NCBI GenBank assembly: GCA_027488735.1
Contig: JAIYBB010000005.1
Coordinates: forward strand, 186,001-250,000
Reading direction: 5' to 3'
DNA: 64,000 bases
Origin: Comamonadaceae bacterium
GTDB taxonomy: Bacteria > Pseudomonadota > Gammaproteobacteria > Burkholderiales > Burkholderiaceae_C
Shown here in pieces: positions 10,612 through 13,401 of this stretch (positions within the stretch are counted from its first letter, which is position 1; each line of letters opens with the position of its first letter). The position numbers and the translations under genes are program-made. The notes beneath the pieces were generated by a model. It was not told the DNA's origin. It was given only the letters and a program-made list of their open reading frames with translations, and did not search any database.

Positions 10612-12072
10612 ATGATTGCACATGAACCCACCCTCGAACGCTTAGCCATTGCCCAAAGCTTGTTGCTCACGCCTTACGGCTTGGACGAAAGCCACCTCAC
10701 TCAAGCACTGTCTGCCATCCGCGCGCACCGGATTGACGATGCGGATTTGTATTTCCAGTACACCCGCTCCGAGGGCTGGAGCTTGGAAGAGGGTATTGTC
10801 AAAACCGGTTCATTCAGTATCGACCAGGGCGTGGGCGTGCGCGCAGTCAGCGGCGAAAAAACCGCCTTTGCTTATTCGGACGATATCTCCATGGCTTCCC
10901 TGATGGACGCGGCGCACACCGTGCGCAGCATTGCCGCAGCGGGGAACACCGCCAGCACCAAAGTCCCGGGCAGACGCATCGCCAAGGCGCGCAGCCTCTA
11001 CCGCGACGACGACCCGATCGCCAGCTTAGACAGCACCGCCAAAGTCAATTTGCTCGAGCGCATCGAGCAACAAGCCCGCGCCAAAGACCCGCGCGTGGTG
11101 CAAGTCATGGCCGGCTTGGCCAGTGAATACGACGTGGTGCTGGTCGCGCGCGCCGACGGCACCTTGGCCGCCGATGTGCGCCCCTTGGTGCGTTTGTCAA
11201 TCAATGTGATCGTGGAAGAAAAAGGCCGCCGTGAAAGCGGTTCAGCAGGTGGCGGCGGTCGTTTCGGGTTGGCGCATTTCGATGCGGCTTGTTTGACACG
11301 CTATGTGGACGAAGCCGTCGGTGCAGCGCTGACCAATTTGCAGGCGCAAGCTGCGCCTGCGGGCGAAATGACCGTGGTGCTGGGCTCGGGCTGGCCCGGC
11401 ATTTTGTTGCACGAAGCCATAGGACACGGTTTGGAAGGCGACTTCAACCGCAAAGGCTCGAGCGCATTCAGCGGAAAAATCGGCCAACGGGTCGCTGCCA
11501 AAGGTGTCACCGTGCTCGACGATGGCACCATTGCCGATCGCCGTGGTTCACTCAATGTGGACGATGAAGGCAATGCCAGCCAGCGCAATGTGCTGATTGA
11601 AGACGGTATTTTGAGAGCCTATATCCAAGACAGCATGAACGCACGCTTGATGGGCGTGGCGCCTACTGGCAACGGCAGACGCGAAAGCTACGCCCATGTG
11701 CCCATGCCGCGCATGACCAACACTTATATGTTGGGCGGTGACAAGCACCCGGAAGAAATCGTCGCCAGCATCAAAAAAGGTTTGTACGCCACCAATTTCG
11801 GCGGCGGCCAGGTGGACATCACTTCGGGCAAGTTTGTGTTTTCCGCCAGCCAGGCTTACTGGGTGGAAAAAGGAAAAATCCAATACCCGGTCAAAGGCGC
11901 GACCTTGGTCGGCAATGGCCCTGACTCTTTGACCCGCGTGAGCATGATCGGCAACGACATGGCTCTAGACCCGGGTGTCGGTACCTGCGGCAAAGAAGGC
12001 CAAAGTGTGCCGGTAGGTGTGGGTCAACCCACTCTGCGTATCGACGGATTGACGGTAGGCGGCACAGCTTGA
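10612..12072 (+). CDS. tldD: Metalloprotease TldD
   Basis: TldD, with TldE/PmbA, forms a zinc protease that degrades unfolded or modified peptides in the cytoplasm. The zinc motif HEAIGHG (about residues 267-273) is the HExxxH signature of TldD. Other conserved segments include YFQYTRSEGWSLEEG near the N-terminus and GKEGQSVPVG at the end. The ATG at 10612 gives 486 residues, close to the usual 481; the open frame continues upstream to 10519, but the extra residues do not resemble the family. No pmbA/tldE partner is in this window. Confidence 0.94.
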   Translation: MIAHEPTLERLAIAQSLLLTPYGLDESHLTQALSAIRAHRIDDADLYFQYTRSEGWSLEEGIVKTGSFSIDQGVGVRAVSGEKTAFAYSDDISMASLMDAAHTVRSIAAAGNTASTKVPGRRIAKARSLYRDDDPIASLDSTAKVNLLERIEQQARAKDPRVVQVMAGLASEYDVVLVARADGTLAADVRPLVRLSINVIVEEKGRRESGSAGGGGRFGLAHFDAACLTRYVDEAVGAALTNLQAQAAPAGEMTVVLGSGWPGILLHEAIGHGLEGDFNRKGSSAFSGKIGQRVAAKGVTVLDDGTIADRRGSLNVDDEGNASQRNVLIEDGILRAYIQDSMNARLMGVAPTGNGRRESYAHVPMPRMTNTYMLGGDKHPEEIVASIKKGLYATNFGGGQVDITSGKFVFSASQAYWVEKGKIQYPVKGATLVGNGPDSLTRVSMIGNDMALDPGVGTCGKEGQSVPVGVGQPTLRIDGLTVGGTA

Positions 12073-12099
12073 AACCGGTGCTGTTGGCTGTGCTACATT
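12069..12099 (+). promoter_or_regulatory. Candidate sigma-70 promoter for the aroG leader
   Basis: TTGAAA (12069-12074) overlaps the tldD stop and is followed, after a 19 bp spacer, by TACATT (12094-12099), preceded by TGC as an extended -10. Transcription would begin around 12106-12107, at or next to the ATG of the Phe/Tyr-rich leader peptide. The spacer is longer than optimal, so this is a prediction only; read-through from tldD is the alternative. Confidence 0.45.
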
Positions 12100-12106
12100 T
12101 CAAGCT

Positions 12107-12175
12107 ATGAATTCAGCGCTTTTTCACTTTGCTTATTTTTATGTCTCACGCTCCAACGGCGGTCGAGAGGTCTGA
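12107..12175 (+). CDS. Phe/Tyr-rich leader peptide of the DAHP synthase gene
   Basis: This is a 22-codon reading frame with ATG at 12107 and TGA at 12173-12175. Residues 5-12 read LFHFAYFY: three Phe and two Tyr codons within seven codons (6-12), the products of the pathway whose first enzyme is encoded downstream. The stop codon falls immediately after the segment that would form the antiterminator. This matches a classical transcription-attenuation leader peptide such as PheL, though this peptide is not one I recognise. No clear Shine-Dalgarno is present; the predicted transcript start coincides with the ATG, so leaderless translation is plausible. Confidence 0.78.
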   Translation: MNSALFHFAYFYVSRSNGGREV

Positions 12176-12212
12176 AAGCAAACAAAGCTCTGAACTCCCC
12201 AACCTACCGCCG
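12157..12212 (+). promoter_or_regulatory. Predicted antiterminator helix of the aroG attenuator
   Basis: CGGCGGT (12157-12163) is fully complementary to ACCGCCG (12206-12212), and AGGT (12168-12171) to ACCT (12202-12205). Forming this helix consumes the 5' arm of the terminator. The 5' arm begins 15 bases after the last Tyr codon (12140-12142), just outside the footprint of a ribosome stalled there, and ends 1 base before the leader stop, so a ribosome at the stop would mask it. This geometry is what attenuation requires. Confidence 0.7.
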
Positions 12213-12232
12213 AACTCCGGCGGTTTTTTTTT
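12206..12232 (+). terminator. Intrinsic terminator/attenuator upstream of aroG
   Basis: CCGCCG (12207-12212), loop AACTC, CGGCGG (12218-12223), then nine T residues (12224-12232), with an additional A-T closing pair. It lies 50 bp upstream of the aroG ATG and 31 bases after the leader-peptide stop. It could also serve as the tldD terminator, but the competing upstream helix and leader peptide favour an attenuator. Confidence 0.85.
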
Positions 12233-12282
12233 GTTCCCAAATTTGTCATTCATAAACAGTTGCAGCCTTCCAGGAGTCTTCC

Positions 12283-13401
12283 ATGAAATCCCATCCCAAA
12301 GATGCTTATGCACCGATCGATGACCAGACCAGCCAGACCGACGACCAACGCATCAAGGACATCACCGTGCTGCCGCCACCCGAACATTTGATCCGCTTTT
12401 TTCCGATTGCTGGAACCGCTGTTGAAAAATTGATCAGCCAGACACGCCAGCGCATCGCCAAAATCATGGCCGGTAAAGACGACCGCTTGCTGGTGGTCAT
12501 GGGCCCTTGTTCTATCCACGACCCTGCGGCGGCGCTGGACTATGCGCGCCGTTTGAAAGCCGAGCGCGAAAAATACAAAGACACATTGGAAATCGTCATG
12601 CGCGTGTACTTTGAGAAACCGCGCACCACGGTTGGCTGGAAAGGCTTGATCAACGATCCTTACCTTGACGAGAGTTTCCGCATTGACGAAGGCCTGCGCA
12701 TCGCACGCCAATTGCTGATTGAAATCAACCGCACCGGCGTTCCCGCAGGCAGCGAATTTTTAGATGTGATTTCTCCTCAATACATAGGCGACCTGATCAG
12801 CTGGGGCGCTATTGGTGCCCGCACCACTGAGAGCCAAGTACACCGCGAATTGGCCTCAGGTTTGTCCGCACCGATCGGCTTTAAAAACGGTACCGATGGC
12901 AACATCAAAATCGCAACCGACGCGATACAAGCTGCGTCACGCGGCCACCATTTTTTGTCGGTGCATAAAAACGGTCAGGTGGCGATTGTGCAAACCCAAG
13001 GCAACCCGGATTGCCACGTGATTTTGCGCGGCGGCAAAGCGCCGAACTATGACGCCGCCAGCGTGTCATCAGCTTGCAAAGAGCTGGAAGCCGCCAAATT
13101 GCCAGCCACATTGATGGTCGACTGCAGCCACGCCAACAGCAGCAAACAACACGAACGCCAATTGGTGGTGGCCAAAGACATTGCCGCTCAATTGGCCGGT
13201 GGTTCGCACCAGGTGTTCGGTGTCATGGTGGAAAGCCATTTGCAGCCAGGCGCGCAAAAATTCACGCCCGGCAAAGACAAGGTCGAGGGCTTGGTCTACG
13301 GCCAAAGCATCACCGACGCCTGCCTGTCATGGGACGATTCGCTGGAAGTGCTGAAGGTGTTGGACGAAGGCATCAAGGCGCGTCGCAAAGCGAAGAAATA
13401 A
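12283..13401 (+). CDS. aroG: 3-deoxy-7-phosphoheptulonate synthase (DAHP synthase, class I)
   Basis: DAHP synthase condenses phosphoenolpyruvate with erythrose 4-phosphate, the first step of the shikimate pathway. The 372 residues align along their whole length with AroF/AroG/AroH-type enzymes: VMGPCSIHDP, VYFEKPRTTVGWKG, SWGAIGARTTESQ, GFKNGTDGN, HVILRGGKAPNY, MVDCSHANSSKQ and SITDACLSW. The segment QTQGNPDCHVILRGG resembles Tyr-sensitive AroF more than AroG, while other stretches resemble AroG, so feedback specificity is not settled; the symbol is used generically. An AGGAG ribosome site lies 6 bases before the ATG. Upstream is a predicted Phe/Tyr attenuator; downstream is an intrinsic terminator. 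Confidence 0.95.
   Translation: MKSHPKDAYAPIDDQTSQTDDQRIKDITVLPPPEHLIRFFPIAGTAVEKLISQTRQRIAKIMAGKDDRLLVVMGPCSIHDPAAALDYARRLKAEREKYKDTLEIVMRVYFEKPRTTVGWKGLINDPYLDESFRIDEGLRIARQLLIEINRTGVPAGSEFLDVISPQYIGDLISWGAIGARTTESQVHRELASGLSAPIGFKNGTDGNIKIATDAIQAASRGHHFLSVHKNGQVAIVQTQGNPDCHVILRGGKAPNYDAASVSSACKELEAAKLPATLMVDCSHANSSKQHERQLVVAKDIAAQLAGGSHQVFGVMVESHLQPGAQKFTPGKDKVEGLVYGQSITDACLSWDDSLEVLKVLDEGIKARRKAKK

Follow-up and report, generated by a model that had tools for sequence, protein, structure and literature searches.

A probable attenuator upstream of aroG

The 64,000-nt stretch of a Comamonadaceae genome analyzed here (the window) contains, upstream of the 3-deoxy-7-phosphoheptulonate (DAHP) synthase gene aroG, an element that is very probably a ribosome-mediated, trp/phe-type transcription attenuator controlling this gene. 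Of the parts by which such attenuators are recognized, four are found: a leader open reading frame (ORF) with aromatic codons, a hairpin between RNA regions 1 and 2 (1:2), an intrinsic terminator formed by regions 3 and 4 (3:4) and a gene of the matching pathway, aroG, downstream. The remaining part, a mutually exclusive antiterminator (2:3), is seen in predicted folding and in its conservation among relatives.

On the + strand, the order is tldD (stop codon at 12070-12072), the leader ORF (12107-12175), the terminator (12206-12232) and aroG (12283-13401, with AGGAG at 12272-12276), such that the leader and terminator lie 50 bases upstream of the proposed regulated gene. The leader ORF runs from the ATG at 12107-12109 to the TGA at 12173-12175, consists of 22 codons (MNSALFHFAYFYVSRSNGGREV) and has no Shine-Dalgarno site. 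Its putative regulatory codons, F6-H7-F8-A9-Y10-F11-Y12, occupy 12122-12142; these coordinates and residues are as an initial annotation of the window had described them. Region 1 (UCUC.CGCU, 12144-12152) would be the partner of region 2 when free of the ribosome. Region 2 (CGGCGGU-CG-AGAG, 12157-12169) occupies the 3′-terminal part of the leader ORF and forms the 5′ arm of the predicted antiterminator, in which CGGCGGU (12157-12163), starting 14 nt past the Tyr12 codon, pairs with region 3 (ACCGCCG, 12206-12212). Region 3 also serves as the 5′ arm of the terminator, a 7-bp stem (ACCGCCG/CGGCGGU, 12206-12224) with a 5-nt loop and a T run to 12232, whose 3′ arm (CGGCGGU) and tail make up region 4 (12218-12232). 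The initial annotation was right that the terminator needs the bases of the antiterminator, 12206-12212 being common to both; the antiterminator pairing it proposed is also predicted here, although the partner it gave (12202-12212) is slightly too long, as 12202-12205 are unpaired in the predicted fold.

aroG encodes a type I DAHP synthase that belongs to the AroFGH family. In its own genome (97.5% complete), we find one match to TIGR00034, the AroFGH-type family, and no match to class II DAHP synthases. The Bacillus subtilis-type DAHP synthase family gives a single match below its cut-off (97 bits versus 267.75), presumably to a relative such as KdsA. Thus, aroG is the sole DAHP synthase found in this genome.

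Conservation and linkage to aroG

To place the window's element among its relatives, we used 108 loci (80 named and 28 from the same genus), 106 of which were usable (L018 is cut off and L104 lacks aroG). A leader with at least four Phe/Tyr/Trp codons and a terminator precede aroG in 98 of the 106 loci, 93 by a strict filter and 5 more with four aromatics. The 93 strict-filter loci were reduced to 82 by removing 11 in reverse orientation without a reference, and to 80 aligned leaders after exclusion of L019 and L046. Leaving out L003, L008, L011, L054, L073 and L101 as well gave an alignment of 74 leaders (A1), on which a covariance model (R1) was built.

R1 matches 147 of 150 genomes of the window's own family (124/126 genera) and 74 of 300 genomes from an even sampling of the order (45/134 genera), counts in which some matched genomes may be near training sequences. 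Each of the 75 order-level matches adjoins the start of an aroG and shares its strand; the element ends between 28 nt inside and 91 nt before the gene start (median 9 nt before), with starts extrapolated from the N-terminus of the window's protein. Of the 147 family matches, a subset that includes L222-L224 was checked for aroG. An AroFGH protein is present in 119 of a 150-genome order sample, and by our count the element stands at aroG in 35 of the 119. The initial annotation had regarded an aroG attenuator as unfamiliar in betaproteobacteria; one is very probably present, but the family and order counts show that it is not peculiar to this organism, the element being nearly universal in the family.

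As a control, we inspected 20 aroG upstream regions from the same order that lack a model match. Their ATG-started short ORFs never exceed 3 aromatics per nine residues, three GTG- or TTG-started ORFs reach 4, and their hairpins were left unscored. Among the 69 order loci L112-L180, one (L178) falls below the aromatic threshold; elsewhere, the best ORF of L219 has one aromatic. R1 also has a weak second match in the window's own genome (G000 C5, 22.5 bits), which we rejected, as it resembles an ordinary terminator downstream of a gene and no aromatic leader is visible there.

Constraint on leader codons and RNA regions

Across the wider collection, the leader at each locus was taken as the most aromatic short ORF and kept if it had at least 4 aromatics in 18 codons, giving 166 leaders (164 after removal of duplicates and short upstream regions). 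The median leader has 7 aromatics in its first 18 codons, compared with 6.7% aromatic residues in four neighboring window proteins, a count that is biased upward because leaders were chosen for aromatic content. Trp is present in 95 of the 166 leaders and absent from that of the window; the term Phe/Tyr of the initial annotation thus fits the window's leader, whereas Phe/Tyr/Trp is more apt for the family as a whole.

Within the genus, 23 leaders share the 22-codon length, and comparison of these indicates what selection has kept. F6, F8 and F11 are invariant in all 23, with only synonymous changes at F6, and codons such as 2, 4, 5, 7, 12 and 13 vary. Conservation of the aromatic codons together with the purely synonymous change at F6 implies that the leader is translated. 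Toward the 3′ end, the codons TCA (14), GGT (19) and GAG (21) never vary, and 22/23 leaders agree at CGC (15) and CGA (20); these five codons fall within RNA regions 1 and 2. In some relatives, the region 2 RNA is retained in other reading frames, with TAAGE, PAEER or PKAVER in the peptide versus TGGRE. The first half of the leader is thus kept for its aromatic codons, and the second half for its RNA.

The alignment of relatives suggested in the initial annotation thus bears out conservation of the reading frame, the aromatic codons and the competing helices, with weak covariation in the antiterminator. When 80 leaders are folded jointly with RNAalifold, the full element adopts 1:2 and 3:4; removal of region 4 yields 2:3, and removal of regions 3 and 4 yields 1:2. 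The covariation signal is good in 1:2 and weak in 2:3, and it is small in 3:4, which is nearly invariant. In A1, 94.5% of cells are paired in 1:2, with two-sided changes at 4/4 pairs and 0/500 shuffles scoring as high. A second alignment (A2, 90 chosen sources), fitted to the R1 structure and biased towards it, agrees on this helix. In 3:4, 99.0% of cells are paired and five of eight pairs are invariant, while in 2:3, 80.3% of cells are paired.

Scored sequence by sequence, complementarity between the leader tail and region 3 is nonetheless well above background: 44 of 74 leaders have at least 7 contiguous pairs, a level reached by 5.8% of random 30-nt windows from the same loci. At one variable position, scored in 141 of the 166 leaders (10 without an exact terminator core and 15 without a GGCGG core were left out), G in region 3 occurs with C in region 4 in 97/99 leaders and with C or U in region 2 in 79/99; A in region 3 occurs with U in region 4 in 35/39 and with U in region 2 in 23/39. 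On the aroG tree, region 2 follows region 3 in about four of six changes and never goes the opposite way. For the window sequence by itself, the terminator has a fold of −12.8 kcal/mol (z −4.2 versus shuffles), the antiterminator is mildly better than shuffles (z −1.5, 12/200 as good) and the leader-only fold is no better (z −0.06, 89/200 as good). The strength of the case lies in conservation across relatives.

Predicted switching

The arrangement suggests the following mechanism. Transcription would start at or within 1-2 bases of the leader AUG, and ribosomes would load on the leaderless 5′ end. When charged tRNA-Phe or tRNA-Tyr (and, in many relatives, tRNA-Trp) is scarce, the ribosome would stall on the aromatic codons and cover region 1, leaving region 2 to pair with region 3 so that RNA polymerase could proceed into aroG. 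When charged tRNAs are plentiful, the ribosome would reach the stop codon and cover region 2, and the 3:4 terminator would then form and halt transcription before aroG.

Folding with a ribosome mask is consistent with this scheme. When a ribosome is stalled on any aromatic codon of the window's leader, the RNA as far as region 3 is predicted to form the antiterminator (−15.5 kcal/mol). At the stop codon, the ribosome covers region 2, and the terminator alone forms (−12.5 kcal/mol). If no ribosome is present, the window's terminator stays free owing to upstream pairing, 1:2 included. Among relatives, the antiterminator forms in the stalled configuration in 129 of 155 leaders and is absent with the ribosome at the stop codon in 142 of 155.

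A number of observations weigh against an attenuator, or against parts of the scheme above. Eight of the 106 aroG loci have no leader (four from Polynucleobacter, two from Cupriavidus, L075 and L078). One congener, L107, retains the aromatic codons and the terminator but has lost region 2, with SRPTGPT instead of SR..GGREV; this natural variant should antiterminate poorly. In fixed columns, covariation of 2:3 is unconvincing, its score being reached by 40/500 shuffles, partly because the register slips between lineages. For 1:2, a +2 slide of the partners lowers pairing to 69.9% of cells but leaves the covariation score equal (0.153). On the aroG tree, the association between regions 3 and 2 comes down to six changes in region 3 and is not significant (median p 0.125), and a synonymous-codon null for 2:3 gives a modest result (actual −14.8 versus a mean of −12.3 kcal/mol, median quantile 0.16). 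In the mask folding, 26 of the 155 leaders fail the stalled-fold test, and 11 of the 166 loci, the window's own among them, were missed by the hairpin finder and so went unscored. In addition, the full transcript at equilibrium prefers the terminator even when the ribosome is stalled (−23.0 versus −15.5 kcal/mol for the antiterminator before region 4), which means that the choice of the antiterminator must be made kinetically, during transcription; in classical attenuators, too, equilibrium generally favors the terminator. Finally, the ribosome-free fold is without the antiterminator in just 73 of 155 relatives, and a ribosome-free default of termination is therefore not general.

A probable leaderless start

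The leader mRNA is probably leaderless, with its 5′ end at the AUG. In the window, an extended −10 element, TGC-TACATT (12091-12099), ends 7 nt 5′ of the leader ATG, and elements of the same kind are found in relatives. A possible weak −35 element, TTGAAA (12069-12074, 19-nt spacer), was read by eye and is assigned with low confidence, and a promoter scan lists no sigma-70-type site. Among the 164 leaders, the distance from the end of a TAnnnT −10 hexamer to the start codon is 6 nt in 28 cases, 7 nt in 74 and 8 nt in 22 (124/164 in total, against a background of ~0.5 per position), and 114 of these have the TG extension. The −10 element occurs at this spacing in 65/71 named loci, 26/27 genus loci and 33/66 order loci. 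As the usual distance from a −10 element to the transcription start is ~7 nt, this spacing places the predicted 5′ end at the leader AUG. The initial annotation had suspected a leaderless mRNA from the window's promoter, a suspicion that the recurrent spacing strengthens.

By a crude test, a Shine-Dalgarno match of at least 4 nt is absent from 159 of the 164 leaders. The contrast with the aroG starts is modest, as the same test is positive at just 37/164 of these and finds none in 127/164. Another group of 37 leaders has no −10 fit within 5-9 nt, and these may instead have a short 5′ untranslated region (UTR).

Alternative explanations

The hairpin could in principle be only the terminator of the upstream tldD, with the aromatic ORF arising by chance. 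This gene does end at 12072, and 98 of 165 leaders have it upstream in the same orientation. At the other 67 of the 165, however, leader and terminator are conserved with no tldD detected in the 400-1400 nt examined upstream, which argues that the terminator is not merely that of tldD. Conservation of the aromatic ORF and its spacing across genera, the promoter element that precedes the leader in 124/164 cases and the lack of a comparable ATG-started ORF in the 20 control regions also speak against this explanation, which we consider very unlikely. Somewhat less remote, but still improbable, is that the leader acts chiefly as a functional small protein or a trans-acting small RNA (sRNA), with cis control of aroG being secondary. 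In Sinorhizobium meliloti, the terminated trpL attenuator RNA and the leader peptide are described as acting in trans (PMC7298713); the element here would likewise give a leaderless RNA of ~125 nt, and leaders within the genus keep their aromatic codons as amino acids. Against this, the C-terminal residues across relatives track RNA pairing and not peptide sequence, and every one of the order-level R1 matches is in cis with aroG.

A ligand-binding riboswitch or a T-box, operating without ribosome stalling, has in its favor the location in a 5′ UTR and the presence of alternative folds. It is the least credible of the three, as no Rfam family, T-boxes and riboswitches included, reaches its cut-off in the window, no aptamer-like conserved core is visible by eye beyond the ORF and the three helices, and the conservation of the aromatic codons, with a synonymous-only change at F6, points to translation. 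Ribosome-mediated attenuation of aroG thus remains our strongly preferred reading.

Relation to known attenuators

No family in Rfam 15 reaches its gathering score in the window. The relevant comparison is with Phe_leader (RF01859), in which competing hairpins and a terminator likewise follow a Phe-rich leader ORF, but which controls pheA or pheS rather than aroG. This family scores 19.8 bits against the window (E 0.41, cut-off 55), and at E ≤0.5 none of 13 aroG leaders is listed as a match.

Each property of the element has a precedent, and the kind of attenuator is therefore known. In Corynebacterium glutamicum, a putative attenuator leader with Phe-Tyr-Phe is described before the DAHP synthase gene aroF (PMC4046766); compared by that description, it differs in coming from an actinobacterium and in having three aromatics versus the median of 7 here. 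In Acholeplasma, the motif uORFC-13-1 is described as an upstream ORF with at least one Phe codon beside a terminator before aroF, also a DAHP synthase gene; unlike the present family, its consensus includes a ribosome-binding site, and it is described as limited to Acholeplasma and environmental sequences (PMC8632094). The trpL attenuator of S. meliloti provides a precedent for a leader mRNA that starts at its AUG, but as described, it contains Trp codons and controls trpE(G) rather than a DAHP synthase (PMC7298713, PMC10117765). Attenuation of the E. coli DAHP synthase gene aroF has been proposed as a hypothesis, according to mentions in PMC8632094 and PMC2659441. Titles and abstract openings in the literature we searched contain no aroG attenuator in beta- or alphaproteobacteria, and a mention in the comparative study of Vitreschak (2004) is possible. 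This family, the gene it controls and its breadth thus appear to be undescribed in the literature we searched.

For DAHP synthase in E. coli, the usual explanation of control is feedback inhibition together with repression by TyrR and TrpR. Across the family of the window's organism, aroG appears to have an RNA switch as its standard control, and this switch has relatives in other orders and classes; a shortage of aromatic amino acids probably turns the pathway on through this element. A covariance model for it is now at hand. The family also offers a natural system for studying how leaderless mRNAs sustain the tight coupling that attenuation needs, and it bears on the engineering of aromatic production in these bacteria.

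Distribution beyond the order

With a broadened covariance model (R2), 7 of 370 genomes of the class match; three belong to the window's own family, and the other four all have the element upstream of aroG. At the level of the phylum, 45 of 299 genomes match, 27 of them outside the order. Of these 27, 23 were retrieved, 20 of them for the present comparison. In these 20, the element precedes a DAHP synthase-like ORF in 17 (15 from other classes and 2 from the same class), pheA in two and pheS in one. Six of the 17 DAHP synthase-like ORFs are confirmed by NCBIfam and the rest were read from sequence. We take the other-class genomes to be Alphaproteobacteria, and many of their leaders, judged by eye, start 6-7 nt after a TATATG-like box. 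The three pheA and pheS leaders found by R2 match Phe_leader at 73.9-124.1 bits and so served as unplanned positive controls; unlike the aroG leaders, they show by eye no −10-like box 6-8 nt before the ATG.

Tentatively, we raise the possibility that a single homologous, leaderless attenuator reading Phe, Tyr and Trp has governed entry into the shikimate pathway since before the major classes of Pseudomonadota split (or has spread with aroG), using leaderless initiation to couple DAHP synthase to the charging of aromatic tRNAs. The terminated RNA and its peptide might in addition act in trans, in the manner of S. meliloti rnTrpL and peTrpL.

Related elements at other loci

Several further loci are of separate interest. 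Two tandem AroFGH genes lie directly behind one attenuator in G058 (C1:2636369-2638520) and G186 (C1:2562495-2564623). On a contig labeled Solimonas (L024), a gammaproteobacterium, the aroG is 83% identical to that of the window and has the same kind of attenuator, as a result of either transfer or contamination.

Within the order, R2 adds 12 genomes at E ≤0.01, three with the element at aroG (L205-L207) and nine with it elsewhere (L208-L216). The nine were not counted as aroG attenuators: four precede an unclassified gene, one precedes a leuA-like gene and four are ambiguous. The first four belong to one genus (L208:611-764, L210, L211 and L212) and have a Phe/Tyr/Trp-rich leader of the MITFSAVFNAYFYWYRSSRRLQGASLD type and a strong terminator before a gene for a ~206-aa protein. 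In L208, this protein matches no NCBIfam family at E ≤1e-10, and none of its Pfam matches is significant. The element here is possibly an aromatic attenuator of an uncharacterized gene. At L213, the leuA-like gene, identified as such by reading the sequence, is preceded by a Leu-rich ORF (LFIAALLSLLLLSRLKD...) with a terminator, and this element is probably a leucine attenuator.

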